Assembly (NCBI RefSeq): GCF_900106035.1
Contig: NZ_FNUC01000004.1
Span: 2,356,001-2,420,000 of the forward strand
Reading direction: 5' to 3'
Length of the DNA: 64,000 nucleotides
Source of the DNA: Jiangella alba
GTDB taxonomy: Bacteria > Actinomycetota > Actinomycetes > Jiangellales > Jiangellaceae
The stretch's first letter is position 1; each line of letters opens with the position of its first letter. The notes beneath the pieces are model-generated. The model ran no database searches. It saw only the letters and a program-made list of their open reading frames with translations, and was not told where the DNA came from. Made by a program: the position numbers and the translations under genes. Positions 35,563 through 53,957 of the stretch are shown here, one piece after another.

Positions 35563-35592
35563 TTGACAGCCATCCGGTAGCGGGTGCATGCT
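35563..35592 (+). promoter_or_regulatory. Candidate promoter of the adhesin gene
   Basis: TTGACA (35563-35568), an 18-bp spacer and CATGCT (35587-35592). The -35 is consensus, the -10 is weak. Transcription from here would give a leader of about 200 nt that includes the compound hairpins described next. Confidence 0.45.
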
Positions 35593-35676
35593 CTGCTGCG
35601 TTAGCCGAGTCCACGAGCGGTCTCGGCGGGTCGACTTCCATAGCGCGGAGAAATCTCTCCAAGGCCGGGGGGCACT

Positions 35677-35781
35677 CGCCCTTCGGTGCCGGAGTCACGA
35701 ATTCTCGTGGCTCGGCCGGCGCCGAAGGGCGTTTGACCTTTCTACGTTGTCCCCGGCCATTCGGCGCCGGGCATTCTTTTC
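35677..35781 (+). ncRNA. Attenuator-like structured leader of the adhesin gene
   Basis: Three mutually exclusive pairings are visible. (A) CGCCCTTCGGTGCCGG (35677-35692) pairs with CCGGCGCCGAAGGGCG (35716-35731), 15 of 16 Watson-Crick plus one wobble, enclosing a small hairpin CACGA-ATTC-TCGTG. (B) The right arm of A, CCGGCGCCGAA (35716-35726), is also perfectly complementary to TTCGGCGCCGG (35760-35770). (C) CCCGGC (35752-35757) pairs with GCCGGG (35766-35771), followed by CATTCTTTTC, a terminator-like hairpin. Formation of B blocks C and breaks A. The end of C is only a few bases before the ribosome site. No known riboswitch consensus is recognised. Confidence 0.5.
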
Positions 35782-35797
35782 ACATGGGGGCGGACAA

Positions 35798-38700
35798 ATG
35801 ATGTCCGGTATGCGACGCCCGTTCTTCCGGGTTGTGGTGGGGGTCCTTCTGGTCGCCGGTTCGGTGACGGTCACCGGCGGCGGCGCGGCCGCGAACCAGA
35901 ACGGCAACGAGCTGGTCGGCGGCTTCGAGATCGACGGCAACTTCTACGAGGGCTTCGACAACACGACGACGGCCACCGGCCCTGACGGCGACCCGATCGA
36001 CTGGGGCAGCGCGGAGATCTTCCCCGCCCAGGTCGACGTCGTCCCCGACCCCTTGGGCGGCACCGACGAGACCGTCTTCGACCAGGGCAGCGCGGAGAAC
36101 GACCCCGCCTCCTGGAACGACGACGGGTCCGCGGCCGCGCCCGGCAAGGGCGACATCGGCGACGCCTACCTCTTCGACCGCGTCGTGAACGGCGACCAGT
36201 TCCTGTACGTGGGGTGGGAGCGCGGCACCGACAACGGCACCGTTCGCTGGTACGTCGAGCTGAACCAGCTGCCCAACACCGTCAACGGCAACGACACCCC
36301 GGTGCCCGACCGCAGCGTCGACGACCTGCGGCTGCGGCTGTTCAACCAGGGCAGCCAGCCGCTGGCGCTGGAGGCGATCGACCGCTGGGACGGCACCGCG
36401 TGGGTGTCCGCCGGCGACGTCGACGACATCTCGCTGGCCGTCAACGACTCCACCATCACCACGCCGAGTGCCGTGTCGCCGCTGGGTGCGGAGCAGTTCG
36501 TCGAGCTCGCGTTCGACCTCACCGCCCTGCTCGGCCCGTCCGACGACTGCGACTTCGCCGGCTTCTCCTCGCTGTGGATCCGCAGCTCGCCCGGCGCCAG
36601 CATGAACTCGGAGCTGAAGGACTACCTCACCGGCACCGTCGACACGGCGGCCCCGTGCGGCCCGCTGACCATCCTCAAGCACGACCCGGACGGCCAGCCT
36701 CTCGGCGGCGCGACGTTCACCGTCGAGCCGAACCCGATCCCCGGGGCGGACGACCCGGACAGCCTGACCATCACCGACAACGACGCGAACGACGCCGACC
36801 CGGCCGACGGCGTCATCGTCATCGACCCGGCATTGCCCGGCGACTACACGATCACCGAGGCCACGCCGCCGCCCGGCTACCTCCAGGACGGCGAGCCCCA
36901 GGACGTCACGCTGGAGGAGTTCGGCGCCGCCACGGTCACGTTCGTCAACGGCCTCGGCTCGCTCGCGTGGAGCAAGCTCGACGCCGAGTCCGGCGACCCG
37001 GTCTGCTGCGCGACGTTCACCGTCGAGGGCACCGGCGGCGCCGCCGAGGGCGTGTCGATCACCGTCGTCGACAACGGCGAGAACGACGCCGACCCCGCCG
37101 ACGGCGCGATTCTGGTCGAGGGCCTGCTGACCGGCACGTACACCGTCACCGAGACGGCGCCGCCGACCGGCTACGACCTGCCCGCCGACCCCGTCCGCGA
37201 CGGCCTCGTCATCGACTCCGAGAACCCCGACCTCGTCATCGAGGCCGCGTTCGAGGACCCGCGGCTGCCGTCCGAGCTGACCGTCCTGAAGCTCGACGCC
37301 GACACCCAGGAGCCGCTGGCCGGCGCCACCTTCGAGCTGTACCTCGACGACGGCGACGGCGTCATGGAGGCGCCCGACGGCGACACCCTGATCGGCGACT
37401 GCACCACCGGCGACGACGGCACCTGCACCATCGGCGACCTCGCCTGGGGCAGCTACTACTGGTACGAGACCGCCGCGCCGCCCGGGTACGAGCTGCCCGC
37501 CGACCGGCTCAGCGGCATGACCACGATCGACCGCGACAACGCGGGCGGCGAGCTGCCCGTGTCGACGCTGACCGACCGGCAGATCCGCTCGTCCATCGAG
37601 ATCGTCAAGACCGACGCGAGCACCGGCGACGAGTTGGCCGGCGCCACGTTCGTGGTGCGCCGCGACGACGGCGACGGCGTCTTCGAGCCCGGCGACGACG
37701 CGGTCGTCGACCCGCCCGGCGAGGTCGTCACCGACGCGACTGGCACGGTCACCGTCGACGGCCTGCTGTTCGGCGACTACTGGGTCGAGGAGACCGCCGC
37801 GCCGACCGGCTACGAGCTGCCCGACCCGGCGTACCAGGGCCCGTTCGGCATCGGCCCGGACAACGCCGGCGAGACCGTCACGGTGACGTTCGCGGACCCG
37901 CAGGTGCTCACCGACCTGTCCGTGCTCAAGCTGGACGGCGGGTCCGACAGCGCCGAGCCGCTGGCCGGCGCCACCTTCGAGCTGTACGTGGACGATCCTG
38001 CCGACGGCGTCATGGACGCGCCCGGGGGCGACACCCTCGTCGGCGAGTGCACCACCGGCGACGACGGCCTGTGCACCGTCACCGGCCTCGGCTTCGGGGC
38101 GTACTACTGGCTCGAGACCGTCGCGCCGCCCGGCTTCGACCTGCCCGACGACCCGTACAGCGCGTTCGTCAACGTCACCGCCGAGAACGCCGGCACCGAG
38201 ATCGCCCCGCTGGCGTTCTACGACCCGCGCAAGCCGGGTGAGCTCGCGGTGCTCAAGCTCGACGACACCGACGGCGCGCCGCTGGCGGGTGCGGAGTTCG
38301 AGCTGCGCGCCGACGACGCCGACGGCGAGGTCGTCGGCACCTGCACCACCGGCGACGACGGCACCTGCACCGTCGGCGACCTCGACTTCGGCACCTACGT
38401 CTGGGTCGAGGTGGCGGCGCCGCAGGGCTACGACCTGCCCGCCGACACCGTCAGCGACCCGATCGTGGTCGACGAGTCCACCGTCGGCGAGGAGCCGACG
38501 CCGTTCGAGTACCGCGACCCGCGCCTGCTGTCGGAGCTGTCGGTGCTGAAGGTCGACGCGTTCGACGGGACGGCGCTGGCGGGTGCGGAGTTCGAGCTGC
38601 GCGCCGACGACGCCGACGGCGAGGTCGTCGGCACCTGCACCACCGGCGACGACGGCACCTGCACCGTCGGCGACCTCGACTTCGGCAGCTACGTCTGGGT

Positions 38701-39313
38701 CGAGACCGCGGTCCCGCAGGGCTACGAGCTGCCCGCCGACCCGGTCAGCGGCCCGGTCGTCATCGACGCGTCGAACGCCGGCGGCGACATCACCCGGGTC
38801 GTCGTGCACGACCCGCGGCTGCTGTCCGAGCTGGCCGTGCACAAGGTGGCCGAGGACACCGGCGAGTCGCTGCCCGGCGCGGTCTTCGACCTCGTGCTCG
38901 CCGACGGCGACATCGTCATCGGCACCTGCACCACCGGCGACGACGGCCTGTGCACCGTCGGGAACCTCGACTTCGGCGACTACTACTGGGTCGAGATCAC
39001 CGCGCCCGAGGGGTACCTGCTGCCCGACGACGTCACCAGCGACGTCGTGTCGATCACGGCCGAGAACGCCGGCACCCAGATCGCCGCCGTGACGTTCGTC
39101 GACCCGCCGGCCGAGGAGCCGCCGACACCCACCCCGACACCGACGCCGACCCCCACGCCGACGCCCAGCCCGTCGCCGTCACCGTCGCCGAGCCCGGAGC
39201 ACCCGCTGCCCGACACCGGCGCCGGTGGCCCGCTGGGCCTGGTGGCGCTGGTCGCCGCGGCCGGGCTCGCGGTGGGCGCCGCGCTGCGGTGGAGGTCGCG
39301 CCGCACCGTCTGA
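35798..39313 (+). CDS. Giant SpaA/Cna-B-type sortase-anchored surface adhesin
   Basis: An 1171-residue surface protein. The signal peptide (FFRVVVGVLLVAGSVTV) ends near residue 30. A ~250-residue N-terminal beta domain (NELVGGFEIDGNFYEGF, then DCDFAGFSSLWIRSS) precedes eight prealbumin-like repeats starting near residues 288, 386, 493, 600, 706, 815, 913 and 1011. Most begin with a Lys strand (ELTVLKLDAD) and end with a Glu strand (YYWYETAAPPGYELP), the residues that form isopeptide bonds in this fold. Repeats 3 and 5-8 also hold a Cys pair (CTTGDDGTC type). A Thr/Pro-Ser/Pro spacer leads to LPDTG near 1137, a hydrophobic helix and RWRSRRTV. ATG 35798 follows GGGGG; ATG 35801 is possible. Confidence 0.9.
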   Translation: MMSGMRRPFFRVVVGVLLVAGSVTVTGGGAAANQNGNELVGGFEIDGNFYEGFDNTTTATGPDGDPIDWGSAEIFPAQVDVVPDPLGGTDETVFDQGSAENDPASWNDDGSAAAPGKGDIGDAYLFDRVVNGDQFLYVGWERGTDNGTVRWYVELNQLPNTVNGNDTPVPDRSVDDLRLRLFNQGSQPLALEAIDRWDGTAWVSAGDVDDISLAVNDSTITTPSAVSPLGAEQFVELAFDLTALLGPSDDCDFAGFSSLWIRSSPGASMNSELKDYLTGTVDTAAPCGPLTILKHDPDGQPLGGATFTVEPNPIPGADDPDSLTITDNDANDADPADGVIVIDPALPGDYTITEATPPPGYLQDGEPQDVTLEEFGAATVTFVNGLGSLAWSKLDAESGDPVCCATFTVEGTGGAAEGVSITVVDNGENDADPADGAILVEGLLTGTYTVTETAPPTGYDLPADPVRDGLVIDSENPDLVIEAAFEDPRLPSELTVLKLDADTQEPLAGATFELYLDDGDGVMEAPDGDTLIGDCTTGDDGTCTIGDLAWGSYYWYETAAPPGYELPADRLSGMTTIDRDNAGGELPVSTLTDRQIRSSIEIVKTDASTGDELAGATFVVRRDDGDGVFEPGDDAVVDPPGEVVTDATGTVTVDGLLFGDYWVEETAAPTGYELPDPAYQGPFGIGPDNAGETVTVTFADPQVLTDLSVLKLDGGSDSAEPLAGATFELYVDDPADGVMDAPGGDTLVGECTTGDDGLCTVTGLGFGAYYWLETVAPPGFDLPDDPYSAFVNVTAENAGTEIAPLAFYDPRKPGELAVLKLDDTDGAPLAGAEFELRADDADGEVVGTCTTGDDGTCTVGDLDFGTYVWVEVAAPQGYDLPADTVSDPIVVDESTVGEEPTPFEYRDPRLLSELSVLKVDAFDGTALAGAEFELRADDADGEVVGTCTTGDDGTCTVGDLDFGSYVWVETAVPQGYELPADPVSGPVVIDASNAGGDITRVVVHDPRLLSELAVHKVAEDTGESLPGAVFDLVLADGDIVIGTCTTGDDGLCTVGNLDFGDYYWVEITAPEGYLLPDDVTSDVVSITAENAGTQIAAVTFVDPPAEEPPTPTPTPTPTPTPTPSPSPSPSPSPEHPLPDTGAGGPLGLVALVAAAGLAVGAALRWRSRRTV
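38281..38687 (+). repeat. Identical 113-bp direct repeat inside adhesin repeats 6 and 7
   Basis: Positions 38281-38393 and 38575-38687 are identical by eye over 113 bp, 294 bp (98 codons) apart in the same frame, encoding GAEFELRADDADGEVVGT and the following Cys-pair segment. Surrounding repeat sequence has diverged. This implies recent duplication or gene conversion and a possible site for loss or gain of one adhesin domain. Confidence 0.8.
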
Positions 39314-42663: not shown

Positions 42664-42682
42664 CCGCCCGGCCGCCGGGCGG
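42664..42682 (+). terminator. Short GC hairpin after the DUF255 gene
   Basis: CCGCCCGG (42664-42671), 3-nt loop, CCGGGCGG (42675-42682). It starts 7 bp after the stop. All-GC, without U-tract; probably a terminator. Confidence 0.6.
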
Positions 42683-42733
42683 ATGAGAGCACGCTCATCG
42701 CCGGTTCATCCGCACGCCACGTGCGGGCTGAAC
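42682..42733. promoter_or_regulatory. Two dyads upstream of the glycosyltransferase operon
   Basis: GATGAG (42682-42687) / CTCATC (42694-42699) is followed by a larger dyad: GTTCA-t-CCGCACG (42704-42716) mirrored by CGTGCGG-gc-TGAAC (42720-42733). They lie 52-103 bp before the first gene of the six-gene operon and could be operators or leader RNA stems. Confidence 0.5.
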
Positions 42734-42784
42734 TGTGGTCACCGAGCAGTCATCTCGACGCCTCGGTGAAAGGGTGCCCCCTCC

Positions 42785-44002
42785 ATGACGGTGCAATCGC
42801 TGTCCGGCCTCGGACGGGCGCGCGTGGCCCTGTACTCCCACGACGCCCAGGGCCTCGGCCATGTCCGGCGCAACCTCGCCATCGCCGGGGCACTCGCCCG
42901 CATCCGGCCGGCGCCCGACGTGCTCGTGCTCACCGGCGCCCCGGAGGCGTCCGCCCTGACCCGTCCGCCCGGCTGCGACATCGTGGGCCTGCCGGGGATG
43001 GCCAAGGACGAGGGCGGCCGATACCGCTCGCGGCATCTGTCGGTGCCGGTGGGCGAGCTGGTCCGGCTCCGGTCCGCGACCATCGACGCGGCGCTGCGTG
43101 CGTTCGACCCGGACCTGCTGATCGTCGACCGCCACCCGTGGGGCTTCGGCCGCGAGCTGGTGCCGATCCTCGAGACGCTGGCCGAGCGCAGCCGGGTGGT
43201 GCTCGGCCTGCGCGACGTCCTCGACGAGCCGGGCCGGGCGCGGCGCGAGTGGGCGCGCGACCACGCGTCCGAGGCGATCGAGCGCTGGTACGACCAGATC
43301 TGGTACTACGGCGACCCGCGGGTGCACGATGCGACGGCCGACCTCGGGCTGCCGGAGCGGCTGGCCGGCATGGTGGTCCCGACGGGGTACCTGGCGCGCG
43401 GGCGGCACCGGCGCCCGCACGACGTGCCGCCCCGTCCGGTCAGCGGCCCGTTCGTGCTCGGCCTGGTCGGCGGCGGCGCCGACGGCTGGGCGCTGGCCCG
43501 GGCGTTCGCGACGGCGCCGATGCCGGTCGGGCACGTCGGCGTGCTGGTGACCGGCCCGCGGATGCCGCACCACCGGCAGGCCGAGCTGCGGGCGATCGCG
43601 CGGACCCGGCCGGAGCTGCGGGTGTTCGAGTTCGTCGACGAGGTCGAGTCGTGGCTGGAGGGCGCCGACGCCGTCGTCTCGATGGGCGGCTACAACACGG
43701 TCTGCGAGGTGATCGCGGCCGGGCCACCGCTGCTGGTGGTGCCACGCGTGCGGCCACGGGCCGAGCAGCTGGTCCGGGCCGAGCGGCTGGCCGCCGCCGG
43801 ACTGCTGGACGTGCTGCACCCGGACCGCCTCGACCCCGCCGCGCTGGGCGGGTGGCTGGCCGACGCGGCCGGCTCGCGGTCCGCCGTCCGGCGCCCGGCC
43901 TCCACCGTCGACCTGGACGGGCTCGAGCGCATCCCGGCGCTCGCGCTGCCGCTGATCGAGTCCGCGCCCGCCCGTCGGGAGGAGCCCGGCCATGTCGCCT
44001 GA
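42785..44002 (+). CDS. Glycosyltransferase, GT28/MurG-like fold
   Basis: A 405-residue GT-B glycosyltransferase. The N-terminal loop LYSHDAQGLGHVRRNLAIAG gives the G-x-G-H-x-R pattern of MurG-like enzymes. The C-terminal domain has FVLGLVGGGADGWALA and the nucleotide-sugar site VVSMGGYNTVCEVIAAGPPL, then VPRVRPRAEQLVRAERLAAAG. No membrane segment. It is the first gene of a six-gene operon with overlapping reading frames (three glycosyltransferases, an ABC exporter, two kinases). The donor is probably a UDP- or GDP-sugar; the acceptor is unknown. The start ATG 42785 has a weak ribosome site (AAAGGG). Confidence 0.85.
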   Translation: MTVQSLSGLGRARVALYSHDAQGLGHVRRNLAIAGALARIRPAPDVLVLTGAPEASALTRPPGCDIVGLPGMAKDEGGRYRSRHLSVPVGELVRLRSATIDAALRAFDPDLLIVDRHPWGFGRELVPILETLAERSRVVLGLRDVLDEPGRARREWARDHASEAIERWYDQIWYYGDPRVHDATADLGLPERLAGMVVPTGYLARGRHRRPHDVPPRPVSGPFVLGLVGGGADGWALARAFATAPMPVGHVGVLVTGPRMPHHRQAELRAIARTRPELRVFEFVDEVESWLEGADAVVSMGGYNTVCEVIAAGPPLLVVPRVRPRAEQLVRAERLAAAGLLDVLHPDRLDPAALGGWLADAAGSRSAVRRPASTVDLDGLERIPALALPLIESAPARREEPGHVA

Positions 44003-45203
44003 CCGCGCCCGCATCGGCTACGTGCTGAAGGTCTACCCCCGCTTCTCCGAGACGTTCGTCGTCACCGAGATCCTGGCCCGCGAGAGCCGCGGCACCGACA
44101 TCGAGATCTTCTCGCTGCGGCCGCCGGCCGACAGCCGGTTCCACGACACGCTGGCCCGGGTCAGCGCGCCGGTGACCTACGTGCCCCGCATCCGCCGGCC
44201 GGACGAGCTGTGGACGGCGCTCGCCGCGGCCGCCGCCGAGCTGCCCCGGCTGCCGGAGACGCTGCCCGAACTGCTGGCCGCCGACGCCGAGGACGCCGGG
44301 CAGGCCGTCGACCTGGCGGTGCGGGTGCGCCGGGCCGGCCTCACCCACCTGCACGCGCACTTCGGCTCGGTGGCGACGACGGTGGCCCGGCTGGCGTCGC
44401 TGCTGACCGGAGTGCCGTACTCGTTCACCGCGCACGCCAAGGACATCTTCCACGAGTCCGTCGACCCCGCCGACCTGCGCCGCAAGCTGGCCGGCGCCGG
44501 GCACGCCGTCACCGTCAGCGACTGGAACGCCGCCTACCTGGCCGACCGCTACGGCGCCGCCGCCGGCCGCGTCCACCGGGTCTACAACGGCCTCGACCTC
44601 GACGCGTTCCCGTTCGCGCCCGACGCCGCGGCCCGCCCGCCGGTCGTCGCCGCAGTCGGCCGCCTGGTCGAGAAGAAGGGCTTCGACGTGCTGCTGGACG
44701 CGTGCCGGCTGCTGGCCGACGCCGGGCGGGAGTTCCGCTGCCGCGTCGTCGGCACCGGCCTGCTCGAGGCGGAGCTGCGCGAGCGGTCGGCCCGGCTGGG
44801 GCTCGGCGGGCTGGTGGAGTTCACCGGGCCGCTGCCGCAGCCGCAGGTCCGCGCCGTCGTGCGTTCCGCCGCCGTCCTGGCCGCGCCGTGCGTCGTCGGG
44901 GCCGACGGCAACCAGGACGGCCTGCCGACGGTGCTGCTGGAGGCCATGGCGCTCGGCACACCGTGCGTCTCGACCGACGTCGCGGGCATCGGCGAAGTGG
45001 TGCGCGACGAGACGACGGGGCTGCTGGTGCCGCAGCGCGAGGCCGGCGCGCTCGCCCGCGCCCTCGCCCGGCTGCTCGACGACACCGCGCTGCGGACCCG
45101 GCTGGCCGCGGCCGCGCGCGGCCTGGTCGAGAAGGAGTTCGACGCGGTCCGGCAGGCCCGTGAGCTGGACGAGCTGCTCGTCACACCGGAGCCGGCGCCA
45201 TGA
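43992..45203 (+). CDS. Glycosyltransferase family 4 protein (WcaL/AmsK-like)
   Basis: A 403-residue GT4 enzyme. The N-terminal IGYVLKVYPRFSETFVVTEI and the stretch THLHAHFGSVATTVARLASL, FTAHAKDIF resemble colanic-acid and exopolysaccharide transferases. The retaining-GT E-x7-E motif lies in LLEAMALGTPCVSTDVAGIG, preceded by DGNQDGLPTV. The nucleotide-binding AAVGRLVEKKGFDVLLDA is typical. ATG 43992 overlaps the previous gene by 11 nt and has GGAGGAG upstream. It probably adds a hexose to a growing glycan or glycolipid. Confidence 0.92.
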   Translation: MSPDRARIGYVLKVYPRFSETFVVTEILARESRGTDIEIFSLRPPADSRFHDTLARVSAPVTYVPRIRRPDELWTALAAAAAELPRLPETLPELLAADAEDAGQAVDLAVRVRRAGLTHLHAHFGSVATTVARLASLLTGVPYSFTAHAKDIFHESVDPADLRRKLAGAGHAVTVSDWNAAYLADRYGAAAGRVHRVYNGLDLDAFPFAPDAAARPPVVAAVGRLVEKKGFDVLLDACRLLADAGREFRCRVVGTGLLEAELRERSARLGLGGLVEFTGPLPQPQVRAVVRSAAVLAAPCVVGADGNQDGLPTVLLEAMALGTPCVSTDVAGIGEVVRDETTGLLVPQREAGALARALARLLDDTALRTRLAAAARGLVEKEFDAVRQARELDELLVTPEPAP

Positions 45204-46375
45204 GGGTCGCCTACGTCTGCGCCGACCCCGGTGTGCCGGTGTTCGGGTCGAAGGGCGCGTCGGTGCACGTCACCGAGGTCCTGCGGGTGCTGGTCGGCCT
45301 CGGCGCGCGGGTCGACCTGTTCTGCCGGCGCACCGGCGGCGTGGTGCCGCCCGGCCTGAGCGGCGTCCGGGTGCATCGCCTGCCCGCGCCGGTCGCCCAC
45401 GACGCCGCCGCCCGCGAGCTCGAGCTGCTCGGCCAGGCCCGGGAGATCGAGGCGGCCGTGCAGGCGGCCGGGCCGTTCGACCTGGTCTACGAGCGGTACT
45501 CGCTGTGGAACGCCGCGACCATGGGCTGGGCGCGCTCGGCCGGCGTGCCCGCGGTGCTGGAGGTGAACGCGCCGCTGGTCGACGAGCAGGCGGAGCACCG
45601 CACGCTCGTGCACCGCGACGAGGCGTTGTCGGTGCTGCGAGCCGCCGCGATGTGCGCGACGGTGGTGAGCTGCGTGACCGAGCCGGTGGCCGGCTGGGTT
45701 CAGTCCGTCGCCGGGCCGGCGCCGGTGCTGGTGCAGCCCAACGGCGTCGACGTCGACCGGTTCCGGCCCGCGCCCGGGCGGCGACCGCACCCGTTCACCG
45801 TCGGCTTCGTCGGCACCCTCAAGCCGTGGCACGGCGTCGGCGTGCTCGCCCACGCGTTCGCCCTGCTCAGGCACGAGTGCCCGGAGGCGCGGCTGCTCGT
45901 GGTCGGCGACGGTCCCGGCGCGCCCGGCCTGCGGGCGTCGCTGGAGGCGTCGGGCTGCGCCGGGTCCGCGGAGCTCACCGGCGCCGTCCCGCCGTCCGCG
46001 ATCCCCGCCCTGCTGCGCACCATGGACGTCGCGACCGCGCCGTACCCGGCCGACGCCGGTGCGTACTTCTCGCCGCTGAAGGTCTACGAGTACCTCGCCA
46101 CCGGGCTGCCCGTCATCGCCAGCCGCACCGGGCAGCTGCCGAAGGTCGTGCGCGACGGCGTCGACGGCGTCCTGGTGCCGCCCGGCGACCCGGCGGCGCT
46201 GGCGCGGGAGCTGATCCGGTTGCGGCGCGACCCCGGCCGGCGGCGCCGGCTCGGCCGGGCCGCGCGGGCGGGCGTCGAGCGGCACCACACCTGGCGCGCC
46301 GTGGTGACGCGGACGCTCGCCGCCGCCGGCGTCGGCCTGGACGCCCCCGGCCGGGCCGTGCCGGAGACGGTGTGA
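45200..46375 (+). CDS. Glycosyltransferase family 4 protein
   Basis: A 391-residue GT4 enzyme. The opening MRVAYVCADPGVPVFGSKGA, SVHVTEVLRVL is the subtype with a G-x-x-G-A-S-V-H loop. The C-terminal domain has TVGFVGTLKPWHGVGVLAHA and SPLKVYEYLATGLPVIASRT (E-x-Y/L and donor loop). ATGA overlap with the preceding gene (45200-45203) and TGATG overlap with the exporter gene indicate coupled translation. With two other glycosyltransferases the operon can make at least a trisaccharide-like decoration. Confidence 0.92.
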   Translation: MRVAYVCADPGVPVFGSKGASVHVTEVLRVLVGLGARVDLFCRRTGGVVPPGLSGVRVHRLPAPVAHDAAARELELLGQAREIEAAVQAAGPFDLVYERYSLWNAATMGWARSAGVPAVLEVNAPLVDEQAEHRTLVHRDEALSVLRAAAMCATVVSCVTEPVAGWVQSVAGPAPVLVQPNGVDVDRFRPAPGRRPHPFTVGFVGTLKPWHGVGVLAHAFALLRHECPEARLLVVGDGPGAPGLRASLEASGCAGSAELTGAVPPSAIPALLRTMDVATAPYPADAGAYFSPLKVYEYLATGLPVIASRTGQLPKVVRDGVDGVLVPPGDPAALARELIRLRRDPGRRRRLGRAARAGVERHHTWRAVVTRTLAAAGVGLDAPGRAVPETV

Positions 46376-48141
46376 TGGCGGCCCGCCGGGCGGACCTGCG
46401 CTCGGCGCTGCCCGGGCTGCGCCGCACCCTGCGCTACCTGCGCCCGCACCTGCGGCCGGAGCGCTGGCTGCTGGCCGGCGGCTTCGGCTGCCTGCTGGCC
46501 GAGGTGGCGTTCCGGCTGATCGAGCCGTGGCCGCTGAAGTACGTCATCGACGCGGTGATCGAGCCGGGTGCGGCGGACCGGTCCGGGATCGTCGCGCTGC
46601 TGCTGCTCTGCGCGGTCGCGCTGGTGGCCGCCGCCGGGCTGCGCGCGCTCTCGGCGTACCTCATGACGGTCTGCTTCGCCCTGGCCGGCACCCGCGCGAT
46701 GACCGCCGTCCGTGCCGACGTCTTCGCCCACGTGCAGCGGCTCTCGCTGCGCTTCCACGGCTCGACCAAGACCGGCGACCTGCTGACCCGGCTGGTCGGC
46801 GACGTCGGCCGGTTGCAGGAGGTGGCGGTGACGGCGGCGCTGCCGCTGCTCGGCAACGTGGTGGCGCTGCTGGGGATGACGGCCGTCATGGTGGTGCTGG
46901 ACTGGCGGCTCGCGCTCATCGTCGTCGCGGCGTTCCCGGTGTTCGTGCTGGCCAGCTCGCGGTCCAGCCGGAAGATCACGTCGGCGGCGCGGCTGCAGCG
47001 CCGCCGCGAGGGCGAGCTGGCCGGCACCGCCGGCGAGACGCTCGGCGCCATCACCGTCGTCCAGGCCTACTCGCTGGAGCGGATCCTGCAGCGGGTCTTC
47101 GGCGCGGACAACCAGCGGGCGCTGCGCGACGGCGTCAAGGCGTCGCGGCTGGCGGCCGGGCTGGAGCGCAAGACCGACCTGCTGGTCGGCGTCGCGACGG
47201 CGGCCGTGCTGCTGGTGGGCGGGACCCGGGTGCTCGACGGCGCGCTGACGCCGGGCGAGCTGGTGGTGTTCGTCAGCTACCTCAAGGGCGCCTTCAAGCC
47301 CATGCGCGACCTCGCCAAGTACACCGGCCGGCTGGCCAAGGCGGCGGCGTCGGGGGAGCGGATCGTCGACCTGCTCGAGACGGTGCCCGACATCACCGAC
47401 GCCCCGCACGCCCGGCCCGCGCCGCGCTTCCGCGGCGAGCTGCGCTTCGAGCAGGTCGACCTCGACTACGGCACCGGCGAGCGGGCCCTGCGCGACGTCA
47501 GCCTGCGTATCCCGGCCGGCTGCCGGGTCGGGCTGGTCGGCCCGTCCGGGTCGGGCAAGTCGACGCTCGCCGCGCTGGTGCTGCGGCTCTACGACCCCAC
47601 CGGCGGCGCCGTCACCATCGACGGGCACGACCTGCGCGACCTCACGCTGGCGTCGGTGCGCGGGCAGGTCGCCGTCGTGCTGCAGGAGAGCGTCCTGTTC
47701 GCGACGTCGGTGCGCGAGAACATCAGGTACGGCCGGCCCGATGCCACGGACGCCGAGGTCGAGGCGGCCGCCCGGGTCGCGCACGCCGACGAGTTCGTGC
47801 GCCGGCTCGAGTACGGCTACGACACCGTGCTCGGCGAGCGCGGGACCGGGCTCTCCGGCGGGCAGCGGCAGCGCGTCGCCGTCGCCCGGGCCGTCCTGCG
47901 CGACGCCCGCATCGTCGTACTCGACGAGGCCGCCACCGGGCTGGACCGGGAGAGCTCGGCCGCCGTCCGCGACGCGATCCGCGCGCTCACCCGCGGCCGG
48001 ACCACGCTCGTGATCTCGCACGTGCCCGAGGAGGTCGCCGACTGCGACGTCGTCGTGCGGCTGGAGGCCGGGCGGGTGGTCGAGTACCGGCCCCGCGCGC
48101 TGCCGAGGCGAGGGGAGACCGTCGATGCTCGCCGACGCTGA
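46375..48141 (+). CDS. ABC transporter, fused permease-ATPase (ABCB/MsbA-like exporter)
   Basis: A 588-residue half-exporter. The membrane domain (residues about 15-310) has six helices, including WLLAGGFGCLLAEVAFRLIE, ALLLLCAVALVAAAGLRALS, GNVVALLGMTAVMVVLDW and LALIVVAAFPVFVLA. The ATPase has Walker A GPSGSGKST, Q-loop VLQESVLFATSVREN, signature LSGGQRQRVAVARA, Walker B ARIVVLDEAATGLD and switch His (ISHVPEEV). It should act as homodimer. Position inside an operon of glycosyltransferases suggests export of the glycosylated product or its lipid-linked form. ATG 46375 overlaps the previous stop. Confidence 0.94.
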   Translation: MAARRADLRSALPGLRRTLRYLRPHLRPERWLLAGGFGCLLAEVAFRLIEPWPLKYVIDAVIEPGAADRSGIVALLLLCAVALVAAAGLRALSAYLMTVCFALAGTRAMTAVRADVFAHVQRLSLRFHGSTKTGDLLTRLVGDVGRLQEVAVTAALPLLGNVVALLGMTAVMVVLDWRLALIVVAAFPVFVLASSRSSRKITSAARLQRRREGELAGTAGETLGAITVVQAYSLERILQRVFGADNQRALRDGVKASRLAAGLERKTDLLVGVATAAVLLVGGTRVLDGALTPGELVVFVSYLKGAFKPMRDLAKYTGRLAKAAASGERIVDLLETVPDITDAPHARPAPRFRGELRFEQVDLDYGTGERALRDVSLRIPAGCRVGLVGPSGSGKSTLAALVLRLYDPTGGAVTIDGHDLRDLTLASVRGQVAVVLQESVLFATSVRENIRYGRPDATDAEVEAAARVAHADEFVRRLEYGYDTVLGERGTGLSGGQRQRVAVARAVLRDARIVVLDEAATGLDRESSAAVRDAIRALTRGRTTLVISHVPEEVADCDVVVRLEAGRVVEYRPRALPRRGETVDARRR

Positions 48142-49273
48142 CCGGCTGCTGGCCGGCCGCGACCCGGACGTCCCGGGGCTCGCGGTGCTGCTCGACCCGG
48201 ACGCGCTGACCGCCTGGCTGGGGTCGCGCTGGGACGCCCGCGACCGGCCGCCGCCCGACGCCGTCACCGTCAGGTACCTTCGCTACAAGCCGGGCACCGC
48301 CCTGGTGGCCGCGGTCGAGCTGAGCTGGCCGGGCGCGACCCGGGCCGGCTTCGTCAAGGCGGTCGCCCCGGGCGCGGCGCCGAAGCTGGCGAAGCTGCGC
48401 GGCGCGACGGTCGACGACGTCCGGCTGCTCGCGTACGGCGACGCCGCCGACGACCGCCGGCTGCCGGGGCTCGCCAGGCTCGGCCCGGGCCTGCGCACCC
48501 TGCGGTACAAGCCCGAGCGCCGGTGGGTCGGCGTCGCCGGCGACCGGGTCGTCAAGGTGCACCGCCCGCCGCTCCCGCCGTCGGTGGTGTCCGACCACCA
48601 GGCCGTGCGCGCGGCGGGACTGCCGGTGCCCGAGCTGCTGGCGGCGCGGCTGCGGCACGGGCTGGTCGTGTACCGCTGGGTCGACGGCGAGCCGCTCGAC
48701 CGGTCTCCCGGCGGGCCGGACGGCGCCGCCCGCCGGGAGACCGGTGCGCTGCTGCGGCGGCTGCACGACTGCGCGGTCGTGCCGGCCCGGACCCGACCGC
48801 CGCACCGGCTGGAGCTGGCCGGAGCGGTGCGGGCGGTCGCGGCCGTGCTGCCGGAGGCCGCGGCGCCGGCCGTGGCCACGGCGCGGGCGATCACCGGGGC
48901 GCTGGCCGGTGCGGACCGCCCGGTCGTCCCGGTGCACGGCGACTTCTCGGCCGACCAGGTGATCGCCGGGCCGGACGGGCTCGCCGTCATCGACCTCGAC
49001 CGCTTCTGCGCCGACGATCCCGCCGCCGACCTCGCCGGCTGGGCCGCCGCCGAGATCGTCGCCGGCCGGGCTGGTCCGGACGACGGCGCGGCGCGGGTGC
49101 TCGGCGAGCTGCTCGACGGCTACCGGCCGGCGCCCGACCTGCTGGACCGGCTCGACCCGCTGACCGCCGCCGCGCTGCTGCGCCGGGCCGCCGAGCCGTT
49201 CCGTACTCGGCAGGCCGACTGGCCCCGCCAGGTGGCGGAGCACGTGCGGCGCGCCCACCGGCTGGTGTCGTGA
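48125..49273 (+). CDS. APH-fold phosphotransferase, first of tandem pair
   Basis: A 382-residue protein of the aminoglycoside/choline kinase fold. The catalytic loop is VPVHGDFSADQVI (H-G-D with Gln in place of the more usual Asn) and the metal-binding motif is VIDLDRFCADDPAADLAGW. An N-terminal Lys in RVVKVHR could bind ATP phosphate. The first ~110 residues are an extra domain containing VRYLRYKPGTALVAAV, and LRTLRYKPERR repeats the RYKP motif. It overlaps the exporter gene by 17 nt. It may phosphorylate a sugar or the operon product; antibiotic resistance is only one possibility. Confidence 0.85.
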   Translation: MLADADRLLAGRDPDVPGLAVLLDPDALTAWLGSRWDARDRPPPDAVTVRYLRYKPGTALVAAVELSWPGATRAGFVKAVAPGAAPKLAKLRGATVDDVRLLAYGDAADDRRLPGLARLGPGLRTLRYKPERRWVGVAGDRVVKVHRPPLPPSVVSDHQAVRAAGLPVPELLAARLRHGLVVYRWVDGEPLDRSPGGPDGAARRETGALLRRLHDCAVVPARTRPPHRLELAGAVRAVAAVLPEAAAPAVATARAITGALAGADRPVVPVHGDFSADQVIAGPDGLAVIDLDRFCADDPAADLAGWAAAEIVAGRAGPDDGAARVLGELLDGYRPAPDLLDRLDPLTAAALLRRAAEPFRTRQADWPRQVAEHVRRAHRLVS

Positions 49274-50430
49274 CGGCCGCGTCGCCGCCGCCCGCGGGCC
49301 GGCTGCGGGAGGCGTCGTCGCACCGGCACACCGTTCCGTCGCGCCATCCCGACCGGATCACCCACCCGGCGACGGGCGCCGAGCTGACCCTGCTGCGGGC
49401 CTGGCCGCGCCGCGACGGCCACGTCCTCCTGGAGTTCGCCACGCCGTCCGGCGCGCGGCTGGCCGGACAGTGGTTCGCCGACCCCGTCCGGCGGGCCTCG
49501 GTCGCCGCGGCGACCTGTGGCGGCCTCGACGTCCCCGCGCACGGCGTCGTGCTGCAGCCGGACGGCGCCGACCGGAGGCTCGCCGCGCTGGCCGGGCTGG
49601 TGGCGCGGCCGGGCAGCCGGCTGCTGGTGCACCGTCCGGAACGCCGCGCGGTCGTCCTGCTCGACGACGACGGTGACCGGCGTTACGCGAAGGTGCTGCG
49701 GCCGGGGGCGGACGCGGCGCTGGCCGGACGGCTCGCCGCGCTGGCCGCCGCGCTGCGCGGGGTCGCCGAGGTGCCGCGCCCGCTGGCCCTGAGGCTGGGC
49801 GACGGCGTCCTGGCGCAGTCCGAGCTGCCCGGGCCGACCCTGTACGAGGCGGCCGCGTCGCTCGGCCCGTCGGGCCTGCTGGCCGGGTGGGAGCGGCTGG
49901 GCGCGGCGCTGCGCCGGCTGCACGGCACGCCGGCGCCGGCCGTGGCCGTCACCGCCACCCACGACGCCGCCGACGAGGAGGCCGTCACCGCCCGCTGGCT
50001 CCGGGCCGCGGCCGCGTCCGGGCTGCTGCCGCCCGTCGACGTCGCCGCGCTGCTGACGTCGCTGCGGTCCGGCTCGCCCGGCCCGGCCGGACTGCTCCAC
50101 CGCGACCTGCACGACAAGCAGGCGGTCCTCCAGCCCGGCGGCCGGCTCGGGCTGCTCGACCTCGACACCGTCGCGGCCGGGGAGCGGGCCCTCGACGTCG
50201 CCAACGTGCTGGTCCACCTCGAGTTGCGGGTCGCCCAGCGGGCGCTGACGTCGTCGCTGGCCCGGTCGGCGCGGGCGGCGTTCCTCGCCGGGCTCGACCC
50301 GGACGACGCGACGCTCGCGCGGGTGCCGGCGTACGAGCGGGCGACGCGGCTGCGGCTGGCCGGCGTCTACGCGTTCCGGCCGCGCTGGCGGGGGCTGTCG
50401 CGGTCGATGCTGGCGGCGGCTTCGCCGTGA
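49270..50430 (+). CDS. APH-fold phosphotransferase, second of tandem pair
   Basis: A 386-residue kinase-like protein. The catalytic loop is GLLHRDLHDKQAVLQ (H-R-D with Gln replacing Asn, as in the first kinase) and the metal motif is LGLLDLDTVAAGERALD. An ATP-site Lys may be in RRYAKVLRPGADAA. The N-terminal ~110 residues (VPSRHPDRITHPATGAELTL) form an unrelated-looking extra domain. GTG 49270 overlaps the previous stop by 4 nt. The two kinases share fold and active-site variation but little overall sequence, so they are likely to have different substrates in one pathway. Last gene of the operon. Confidence 0.85.
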   Translation: MTAASPPPAGRLREASSHRHTVPSRHPDRITHPATGAELTLLRAWPRRDGHVLLEFATPSGARLAGQWFADPVRRASVAAATCGGLDVPAHGVVLQPDGADRRLAALAGLVARPGSRLLVHRPERRAVVLLDDDGDRRYAKVLRPGADAALAGRLAALAAALRGVAEVPRPLALRLGDGVLAQSELPGPTLYEAAASLGPSGLLAGWERLGAALRRLHGTPAPAVAVTATHDAADEEAVTARWLRAAAASGLLPPVDVAALLTSLRSGSPGPAGLLHRDLHDKQAVLQPGGRLGLLDLDTVAAGERALDVANVLVHLELRVAQRALTSSLARSARAAFLAGLDPDDATLARVPAYERATRLRLAGVYAFRPRWRGLSRSMLAAASP

Positions 50431-51740: not shown

Positions 51741-51796
51741 GGGCGGGGAGAAATGACGTTCGGCGAACGGCCACGATGCTGGAGGTGCATCGGTCG

Positions 51797-52558
51797 ATGG
51801 GTCTGTCCGACCTGGTCTACCGCATCTACGGAAAGCGCATCAAGCGCCAACTCGACCGCGGCCGCCTGCCGCAGCACGTCGCGGTGCTCATGGACGGCAA
51901 CCGCCGCTGGGCCCGCGCGCTCAGCGCACCCACCTCGAGCGGCCACCAGGCCGGCGCCGAGAAGGCGCGCGAGTTCCTCGGCTGGTGCGACGAGCTCGAC
52001 GTCAACGTCGTCACCCTCTGGATGCTGTCCACCGACAACCTCAACCGGCCCGAGGACGAGCTCGTCCCGCTGCTCGGGATCATCGAGAACCTCATCCAGG
52101 ACATCGCCGCCACCGGGCGCTGGCGGGTGTACCCCATGGGCGCGCTCGACCTCCTGCCGCCGCGCACCGCCACCGTCATCAAAGAGGCCGCCGACCGCAC
52201 CCGCGACCTCGACGGCATGCACGTCAACGTCGCCGTCGGCTACGGCGGCCGCCGCGAGATCGCCGACGCCGTCCGGGCCCTCCTGCACGAGCACGCCGCG
52301 CGCGGGGCTTCGATCGAGGAGGTGGCCGAGGTGGTCACCGTCGAGGGCATCGCCGAACACCTCTACACCAAGGGTCAGCCCGACCCCGACCTCGTCATCC
52401 GGGCCAGCGGAGAGCAGCGGCTGTCCGGGTTCATGCTGTGGCAGAGCGCCAACTCGGAGTTCTACTTCTGCGAAGCCCTCTGGCCCGACTTCCGCCGGGT
52501 CGACTTCCTCCGGGCGCTCCGGTCGTACAGCGAGCGCGAACGCCGCTACGGCCGCTAG
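51797..52558 (+). CDS. uppS: Isoprenyl transferase (cis-prenyltransferase, UppS/Z-FPP synthase family)
   Basis: A 253-residue cis-prenyl diphosphate synthase. The catalytic Asp is Asp33 in AVLMDGNRRWAR; other family motifs are GHQAGAEKAREFL, TLWMLSTDNLNRP, VAVGYGGRREIAD and the C-terminal PDLVIRASGEQRLSGFML with FYFCEALWPDF. ATG 51797 is preferred (GGAGG about 11 bp upstream); ATG 51776 would add VHRS-type residues. The neighbour order matches Rv1086, a short-chain Z,E-farnesyl diphosphate synthase, so this may be that enzyme rather than the polyprenyl-producing one. Product chain length cannot be read by eye. Confidence 0.93.
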   Translation: MGLSDLVYRIYGKRIKRQLDRGRLPQHVAVLMDGNRRWARALSAPTSSGHQAGAEKAREFLGWCDELDVNVVTLWMLSTDNLNRPEDELVPLLGIIENLIQDIAATGRWRVYPMGALDLLPPRTATVIKEAADRTRDLDGMHVNVAVGYGGRREIADAVRALLHEHAARGASIEEVAEVVTVEGIAEHLYTKGQPDPDLVIRASGEQRLSGFMLWQSANSEFYFCEALWPDFRRVDFLRALRSYSERERRYGR

Positions 52559-52635: not shown

Positions 52636-53310
52636 ACCCGCGGCCCGCCGACCTGCTCGCCGTCACCCGGCCGTCCGCCGCGGTCTGGCCTGCCGATCTG
52701 TTCGCTGTGGCCCGGTCGTCCGCCGCGGTCTGGCCTGCCGATCTGTTCGTTGTGGCCCGGTCGTCCGTCGCGGTCTGGCCTGCCGATCTGTTCGTTGTGG
52801 CCCGGTCGTCCGTCGCGGTCTGGCCTGCCGATCTGTTCGTTGTGGCCCGGTCGTCCGTCGCGGTCTGGCCTGCCGATCTGTTCGTTGTGGCCCGGTCGTC
52901 CGTCGCGGTCTGGCCTGCCGATCTGTTCGTTGTGGCCCGGCCGCTCACCGTGGCCTGGCCTGCCGATCTGTTCGTTGTGGCCCGGCCGCTCACCGTGGCC
53001 TGGCCCGCCGATCTGTTCGCTGTGGCCCGGCCGCTCACCGTGGCCTGGCCCGCCGATCTGTTCGCTGTCGCCCGGCCGCTCACCGTGGCCTGGCCCGCCG
53101 ATCTGTTCGCTGTCGCCCGGCCGTCCGCCGCGGCCTGGCCCGCCGATCTGTTCGCTGTCGCCCGGCCGTCCGCCGCGGCCTGGCCCGCCGACCTGCTCGC
53201 TGTCGCCCGGCCGTCCGCCGCGGCCTGGCCCGCCGACCTGCTCGCTGTCGCCCGGCCGCTCACCGCGGCCTGGCCCGCCGACCTGCTCGCCGCCGCCCGC
53301 GCCCGCGCCG
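52636..53310. repeat. Minisatellite: 15 tandem copies of a 45-bp unit
   Basis: Units start at 52636, 52681, 52726 and so on every 45 bp to 53310. The core is CTGCCGATCTGTTCG on the plus strand. Subtypes are grouped: units 3-6 nearly identical, 7-10 changing the last third, 11-15 more GC-rich. That is expected from slippage or unequal crossing-over. All six frames are open because no unit contains a stop. Differences between units are not mainly synonymous in any frame I compared, so coding is unproven. Confidence 0.9.
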
Positions 53311-53672
53311 CGTCTTGCCCACCGCCGCCCCGCTGCCGCTCGCCGCCGATGGCGGGTCGCCCGCCCTCCGTTGCCGGACGCCTGCCGAGCGCTCGCGGCC
53401 GGCGCACGCCGTGACGCACCGACCATCGCGGCCGACGGCCGTCTACCCGCTCGCCGCCGACACCCGCGGTGCTCGCCGCGCTCGCCGTGCCGCCGCGTCC
53501 GCCGTGCCGCCGCCGCGCCGGCGCGCCCGCCGTGGTCTGCGGCATTGTGCCCTTCGCCGTCGGCGGCCCGTCGAGCGTGCGCCGCCGGCACCCGCCGCAC
53601 CCGCATCGCCCACCCTGGTCCGCGGCCTTCTGACCGCTCGCCGCCGGCATCCGCCGCGCCGCGCTGCCCGCT
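53311..53672. other. Low-complexity GC-rich spacer between two minisatellites
   Basis: About 360 bp dominated by GCC/CGC runs, weakly reminiscent of the flanking repeats (scattered CTCGCCG and CCGCCG). I see no gene with a ribosome site, no hairpin stronger than background and no mobile-element signature. Confidence 0.5.
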
Positions 53673-53903
53673 GCGGCCGGGCCCTGCTCGCGCCATCCGC
53701 CCACTGCGGCCGGGCCCTGCTCGCGCCATCCGCCCACCGTGGCCGGGCCCTGCTCGCGCCATCCGCCCACTGCGGCCGGGCCCTGCTCGCGCCATCCGCC
53801 CACCGTGGCCGGGCCCTGCTCGCGCCATCCGCCCACTGCGGCCGGGCCCTGCTCGCGCCATCCGCCCACCGTGGCCGGGCCCTGCTCGCACCATCCGCCC
53901 ACC
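53673..53903. repeat. Minisatellite: 7 tandem copies of a 33-bp unit
   Basis: Units begin at 53673 and recur every 33 bp to 53903. The core GGCCGGGCCCTGCTCGCGCC is followed by ATCCGCCCAC. Units alternate between two forms (ending ACTGCGG or ACCGTGG), so the true duplicated block is probably 66 bp. A degraded partial copy follows at 53904. Confidence 0.9.
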
Positions 53904-53957
53904 GCGGCCCGGCCCGCCGTCGTCGCCTGCCGTTCGCCGTCCGCGGGGTAGGTATGA

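Follow-up and report, generated by a model that had tools for sequence, protein, structure and literature searches.

A coupled glycosyltransferase, ABC exporter, and kinase module found in several bacterial phyla is most likely a surface-glycan export locus

The stretch of DNA analyzed here, hereafter the window, comprises 64,000 nucleotides of Jiangella alba (contig NZ_FNUC01000004.1, positions 2,356,001 to 2,420,000). It encodes six plus-strand open reading frames, from 42785 to 50430, which overlap at all five junctions, by 11, 4, 1, 17, and 4 bases from the first gene to the sixth (Table 1). These coordinates bear out the original prediction of six genes overlapping at every junction, except that its start at 42,682 must be moved 103 bases downstream, to the first ATG. 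The ABC gene begins with an ATG at 46375 lying inside a TGATG, and the K2 gene with a GTG in a GTGA overlap with K1. No promoter-like or terminator-like consensus was found within the six-gene operon.

Table 1. Genes and catalytic loops of the six-gene operon in the Jiangella alba window
Feature	Coordinates	Strand	Description	Evidence
GT1 (gene 1)	42785..44002	+	GT28/MurG-like glycosyltransferase	Pfam Glyco_tran_28_C, 2.5e-8
GT2	43992..45203	+	GT4 glycosyltransferase, EpsE/WcaL-like	Pfam Glycos_transf_1, 2.3e-35
GT3	45200..46375	+	GT4 glycosyltransferase	Pfam Glyco_trans_1_4, 5.1e-30
ABC	46375..48141	+	Full-length MsbA/P-glycoprotein-type exporter	ABC_membrane, 4.3e-43; ABC_tran, 8.4e-33
K1	48125..49273	+	APH-fold kinase, N-terminal domain of ~105 residues	Pfam APH, 5e-17
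K1 catalytic loop	48935..48958	+	HGDFSADQ, residues 271-278	
K2	49270..50430	+	Predicted divergent APH-fold kinase, N-terminal domain of ~97 residues	AlphaFold, Foldseek, PDB profile matches
K2 catalytic loop	50098..50121	+	HRDLHDKQ, residues 277-284	

GT1 retains the conserved motifs GLGH..RR and MGGYN and matches MurG (1f0k) in a profile search at 1.2e-12; GT2 scores 180 bits with the EPS_EpsE model and 136 bits with the WcaL model, each under the model's own cut-off. The ABC protein, whose relatives in the PDB are P-gp, Sav1866, and MsbA, reaches 418 bits with the MsbA_rel model, short of the cut-off of 780. It combines ABC_membrane and ABC_tran in one chain; a Wzm/Wzt (ABC-2 type) transporter is not in the module, and neither a Wzx flippase nor a Wzy polymerase was found among the six operon proteins. 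A role in anti-phage defence was considered and rejected: PADLOC matched the ABC protein only (mad3, mad8 ATPase-like) and none of the kinases or glycosyltransferases.

K2 matches no Pfam family at an E value of 1, yet its AlphaFold model (pLDDT 92.8) retrieves aminoglycoside kinases as the top Foldseek matches (5e-10), and a profile search of the PDB likewise returns APH-fold proteins; by its predicted structure, K2 is thus an APH-fold kinase despite the missing Pfam match. The nearest folds to the K1 model (pLDDT 93.5) in Foldseek are maltokinase (best match 4u94, with an rmsd of 13.6 over 441 columns) and glucosamine kinase, whereas the best match by VIA-align is not maltokinase but LxmK, a kinase acting on peptides; the structural neighbours of K1 also include the viomycin, capreomycin, and amicoumacin kinases. 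The fold, the catalytic Asp, and the metal-binding Asp of the APH superfamily are all present in both proteins. Since the structure alignments begin only near residues 105-114 of K1 and 97-105 of K2, each kinase must carry an N-terminal domain of approximately 100 residues. The two domains show no similarity to each other in a profile comparison, in line with the distinct domains of about 110 residues that had been predicted, and the cap domain of maltokinase (Mak N-cap) gave no Pfam match in K1. As a side observation, the N-terminal domain of K1 weakly resembles the N-lobe of its own kinase domain, RYKP recurring in both (P 2.9e-4 and probability 18% by hhalign; six K1 control pairs gave P values of 0.051-0.95); hhalign detected no such likeness in K2.

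Both kinases had been singled out for a Gln replacing the catalytic-loop Asn, and this substitution is confirmed. By regular expression it occurs in 65/67 K1 and 67/70 K2 proteins among the K2-anchored loci listed, the K2 count being biased because those loci were retrieved with a pattern that contains the motif. Unbiased support comes from Gln284, invariant in 26/26 K2 homologues together with D279 and D282, and H271, G272, D273, and Q278 of K1 are likewise invariant across 18 sequences. However, the residue is not unique to the Jiangella operon: maltokinase 4o7o aligns with a Gln at the same position, and glucosamine kinase carries HGDFHVGQ (PMC6520443). Its presence in both enzymes indicates that the change in K1 and K2 points towards sugar kinases, with which they further share an APH-like fold and an N-terminal cap-like domain. 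The gene context differs, K1 and K2 lack a Pfam cap-domain match, and the actinobacterial glucosamine kinase signature given in the same text, Q-x(2)-RE-x(2)-YA-x(3)-LP-x-W (PMC6520443), is found in 0/67 K1 and 0/70 K2 proteins of the listed K2-anchored loci.

An alignment scan of GTDB genomes with K2 yielded at least 70 loci, whose gene content was determined by tblastn, first with the proteins of the window as queries and afterwards with divergent seeds, using simple GC-based gene calls. Among the matches listed, 62 of the 70 K2-anchored loci show GT1-GT2-GT3-ABC-K1-K2 in the same order (59 actinobacterial, two from Planctomycetota, and one from Roseobacter). Six of the others are truncated where their contigs stop (L041, L044, L057, L063, L064, and L082), L035 has K2 alone, and L083 reads GT1-K1-GT2-GT3-K2, with no ABC gene detected by tblastn. 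In 58, 55, 54, 59, and 59 of 59 loci, for junctions 1 to 5, respectively, the stop codon of one gene falls within the already open frame of the next, which shows that the overlaps are not a product of chance. Pairwise distances among the module proteins correlate at r 0.78-0.92 across 59 loci, shared ancestry being uncontrolled, and mean identities among these loci are 47-54% for the glycosyltransferases and the ABC protein and 33-37% for the kinases. Searches anchored on GT1, and hence independent of K2, concur. In such genome-sample searches four to nine candidates were scored per genome, so that the counts are lower bounds; GT1 was present in at least 18 of 396 sampled Actinomycetota genomes. 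Four of the 17 GT1 loci other than that of the window stop before the ABC-kinase part, and all 13 that reach it carry at least one kinase match. Some depart from the standard arrangement: L125, L129, L130, and L136 have two K1-like matches each, L127 has two K1-like and three K2-like matches, and the module is rearranged in L134 and L135. A single ORF encodes both K1 and K2 in 8/62 listed loci; the same fusion is present in Paracoccus aestuarii, where it spans 740 aa, and in the Rhodobacteraceae locus L164, where it spans 761 aa. Many K1 relatives retrieved by protein search are 670-800 aa long. Thus, the six translationally coupled genes are inherited as a unit across phyla, and both the predicted functional unity of the operon and its co-occurrence across genomes hold.

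Beyond the actinobacteria, the distribution is uneven. At least 23 of 199 Planctomycetota genomes match GT1, and 20 of the 22 loci besides that of the centre genome were examined: 18 carry at least GT1-GT2-GT3-ABC or the start thereof, and the remaining two contain only GT1. Relatives of GT1 occur in at least 50 of 198 genomes from the family to which the Roseobacter genome belongs. Eight stretches from this search fall into the module itself (L163 and L164), a variant with a long GT1, extra kinases, and a histidine phosphatase (L167 and L168), and a different cluster without K1 or K2 (L162, L165, L166, and L169). The GT1 of L167 is fused to a response regulator by Pfam, and that of L168 is longer by a similar N-terminal portion. 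In Pseudomonadota, at least 31 of 398 genomes match GT1, mostly through the other cluster; no K1-K2 pair was detected in the 20 loci examined of the 30 besides the centre, and a fused-kinase model matched among 378 Pseudomonadota genomes only the centre genome, preselected as a carrier. The kinase pair is therefore rare in this phylum. The module is present in 18/5,426 complete Escherichia coli genomes, plasmid-borne in all, in the order GT28-GT4-GT4-ABC-APH-APH-alginate export-nucleotide sugar dehydrogenase. The E. coli copy is 37-42% identical to the window in the glycosyltransferases and the ABC protein and 28% in K1; its K2 aligns with that of the window over only 90 residues and is 31% identical over 302 residues to the Roseobacter K2. 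The catalytic motifs HGDFSADQ and HRDFYPDQ are retained in the E. coli and Paracoccus copies. Locus L215 combines GT1-GT2-GT3-ABC with a UDP-glucose dehydrogenase and an epimerase-family gene; no kinase was detected there, indicating that the kinases are not universal in the module.

An alginate-export barrel (PF13372) lies 3' of the module in E. coli, L083, L096, and L179 (E values of 1e-23 to 4e-30), and by tblastn it occurs on the same strand in 13/13 Planctomycetota loci that contain the ABC gene and extend for over 700 more bases, five other ABC-bearing loci that end within 689 bases having been left out of this count. No barrel was found near the module in the Planctomycetota locus L038 or the Rhodobacteraceae loci, and none was seen at the actinobacterial loci; the criterion of an AlgE-type barrel is not applicable to Jiangella, which we take to be monoderm. 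Comparison of 354 kb of near with 404 kb of far flanks shows UDP-glucose-dehydrogenase-like genes within 3 kb of the module in 12/62 listed loci versus one farther out; such genes also adjoin the module in E. coli and L215. These proteins pass the NDP-sugar-dehydrogenase cut-off, and their best matches are UDP-glucose models, under the equivalog cut-offs. Histidine kinases, sought with query proteins taken from other parts of the Jiangella genome, are within 3 kb in 20/62 listed loci versus 5 farther out, a count that spans nine genera and one Planctomycetota MAG and is inflated by relatedness. Other ABC genes, for which the queries came from the same neighbourhoods, are also commoner nearby (9 versus 2), so that proximity alone is non-specific; the MFS control (0 near, 1 far) is too small to be informative. 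The absence of sugar-nucleotide genes in the original prediction stands for the Jiangella operon and fails elsewhere, other lineages carrying them at the module. In Jiangella itself, no dehydrogenase gene and no two-component system lie next to the module.

Within Jiangella, GT1 is found in 4/12 genomes and strong K2 matches in seven. In three genomes (G001, G008, and G011) both flanks match the window, GT1-K1 is absent, and only K2 lies between. These orphan K2 proteins have lost K141, H277, R278, and D297, including the ATP-binding Lys and one metal-binding Asp, and have kept D279, D282, and Q284. Their frames stay open, with dN/dS of 0.29-0.35 among themselves. From sequence comparison, the simplest reading is that GT1-K1 disappeared in an ancestor and that K2 later lost its catalytic activity while keeping some other role. 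The downstream UppS gene (51776-52558) was considered as a member and rejected, because its neighbourhood is kept in the three genomes without GT1-K1.

We consider it reasonably probable that the module assembles, phosphorylates, and exports a glycan, and that the product is a secreted or surface acidic phosphoglycan rather than a lipid or small molecule. GT1, GT2, and GT3 would use nucleotide sugars to assemble the glycan in the cytoplasm; it would probably include a uronic acid, which in many hosts would be made by the nearby UDP-glucose 6-dehydrogenase. The sugar-kinase-like APH enzymes K1 and K2 would phosphorylate it, and the MsbA-type ABC exporter would move it over the inner membrane, making a Wzx/Wzy pair unnecessary. 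In hosts with an outer membrane, the alginate-export-type barrel would release it, and an adjacent two-component system may often control expression. The phosphate could serve as a decoration or as a chain-ending export tag; the sugars used, the chain length, and this role of the phosphate are inferred. The glycolipid or glycosylated small molecule first proposed as the product is less likely, as the barrel and the UDP-glucose-dehydrogenase-like neighbours favour an acidic glycan.

Several known systems resemble parts of this scheme. WbdD and the Klebsiella pneumoniae O7 kinase terminate chains and tie them to export through an ABC transporter (PMC3482155, PMC11231755), a cytoplasmic glycan being modified by a kinase and exported by an ABC transporter as proposed here. 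By analogy with WbdD of E. coli O9a, phosphate added by K1 or K2 at the chain end might stop elongation and mark the glycan for the exporter. This is a plausible but rather unlikely account: the module lacks a polymerase and flippase, and the ABC and kinase genes are adjacent and coupled in 59/59 loci, but the exporter is not of the Wzm/Wzt type, and the variable number of kinases, with none detected in L215 and up to five kinase-like matches in L127, fits decoration better than a cap. The WbdD-type system also differs in having a methyltransferase-kinase where the present module has two APH-fold kinases, and the transporter here is MsbA-type (ABC_membrane). Similarly doubtful is the more general proposition of a cross-phylum glycan route, shared by monoderms and diderms and carried on conjugative E. 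coli plasmids, in which an MsbA-type exporter would replace Wzx or Wzm/Wzt and a phosphate cap added by the APH-kinase pair would set length and license export. The Sinorhizobium meliloti msbA2 operon (SMb21188-SMb21191), comprising two glycosyltransferases and an MsbA-family exporter, is activated by the two-component regulator ChvI, and a role in the synthesis and export of an uncharacterized polysaccharide has been proposed for it (PMC3687685), and removal of msbA2 is harmful only while the upstream glycosyltransferase genes remain (PMC12239276). Judged by description only, it shares the pairing of glycosyltransferases with an MsbA-type exporter; however, its first gene is annotated as an acyltransferase, and the cited passages do not mention kinases. 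The barrel family of AlgE, shared by the Planctomycetota and E. coli copies, provides a link to uronic acids, whereas the module has GT4/GT28 enzymes and an ABC exporter in place of the alginate synthase, or family GT2 membrane synthase, of alginate-type pathways. Alphaproteobacterial megaplasmid clusters of the form GT-GT4-GT4-(histidine phosphatase)-GT-deacetylase have a similar GT1-GT2-like start and MsbA-type ABC genes nearby, but carry a deacetylase and no K1-K2 pair. None of the precedents (WbdD, the O7 kinase, msbA2) is the same system.

Other readings change the product or the role of the kinases. The glycosyltransferases could, in line with the main idea of the original prediction, glycosylate a lipid whose headgroup is phosphorylated by the kinases and which the MsbA-type protein flips to the outer leaflet. 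GT28 enzymes such as MurG use lipid-linked acceptors, GT1 is GT28-like and matches MurG, and both MsbA and ABCB4, a translocator of phosphatidylcholine, are similar to the ABC protein; yet a lipid product would sit oddly with the outer-membrane alginate-export barrel of the Planctomycetota and E. coli copies, and neither the six genes nor the annotated modules examined from E. coli, Paracoccus, and Planctomycetota include an acyltransferase or lipid-priming enzyme. We regard such a flippase as unlikely, although a lipid-linked intermediate is possible. Antibiotic producers are often protected by APH kinases and ABC exporters, and the viomycin, capreomycin, and amicoumacin kinases near K1 are compatible with self-protection against a secreted, phosphorylated antibiotic-like molecule. 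The absence of a scaffold gene, the same gene order in E. coli plasmids, Planctomycetota, and actinobacteria, and the polysaccharide-export barrel make this highly improbable. Nor does it seem at all probable that K1 and K2 are protein kinases or pseudokinases regulating the glycosyltransferases, given their conserved catalytic residues in module copies and their nearest folds among small-molecule kinases, even though the response-regulator fusion of L167 would fit and the orphan K2s, open despite their lost catalytic residues, indicate that a non-catalytic role can exist.

The module is thus most likely a locus for the export of a surface glycan, in which exporter and kinases are paired in an unusual way. 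The prediction that no characterized pathway has this composition agrees with a search of the open-licence literature, in which no description of such an operon was found, and annotated records use generic names only, namely "glycosyltransferase," "aminoglycoside phosphotransferase," "ABC transporter," and "alginate export." If the glycan-export reading is true, these generic names would have left a multi-phylum glycan system unannotated, and chromosomal genes recorded as "aminoglycoside phosphotransferases" would in some cases encode glycan kinases, a point relevant to the annotation of resistance genes. The orphan K2 of three Jiangella genomes offers a natural case in which catalytic residues were lost after the partner genes. 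Together with the E. coli and Paracoccus copies, the Jiangella losses open the question to genetics and biochemistry.

Expansion of the kinase complement is seen in several variants of the module. One actinobacterial locus (L127) carries, in a single operon, two matches resembling the APH-fold kinase K1 and three resembling K2, and L128 is an expanded actinobacterial variant of similar form. In a Rhodobacteraceae-family variant (L167), the MurG-like glycosyltransferase GT1 is fused to a response-regulator receiver domain, and additional kinases and a histidine phosphatase are also present. Three Jiangella genomes without GT1-K1 retain an orphan K2 at a syntenic position (L118 in G008, L119 in G001, and L120 in G011), with Lys141, His277, Arg278, and Asp297 substituted and the reading frame intact.

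A related GT-GT4-GT4-GT-deacetylase cluster, with ABC exporters nearby, is found in alphaproteobacteria (L162, L165, L166, L169, L218-L220, and L222); relatives of GT1 place it on 274 plasmid records, mostly from Rhizobium and Sinorhizobium.

Within the window, two short-period tandem arrays directly follow the UppS-like gene (51776-52558). Separately, a surface-type protein gene contains a 294-base repeat; by eye, its product displays repeated collagen-binding-B-like segments and a C-terminal LPDTG-like anchor.

Features in the window and in variant loci
Feature	Locus	Coordinates	Strand	Remarks
Surface-type protein, 1241 aa	window	35588-39313	+	motifs by eye
294-base repeat	window	38037-38996		inside surface-type protein gene
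Tandem array	window	52642-53290		45 bases x 14.4, 95%
Tandem array	window	53666-53915		33 bases x 7.6, 93%
Receiver domain-GT1 fusion	L167	9435-11018	-	Rhodobacteraceae-family variant
Sulfatase-family gene	L188	2454-4283	-	Planctomycetota; downstream of barrel
Beta-helix protein	L188	15661-17943	+	Planctomycetota; close to module

The E. coli copy (L223; CP057155.1) resides on an IncF conjugative plasmid; fimbrial genes of the F4 (K88) type lie next to it, as does an autotransporter. In the planctomycetotal locus L188, the sulfatase-family gene beyond the alginate-export-type barrel and the beta-helix protein are possible glycan-processing partners of the module.
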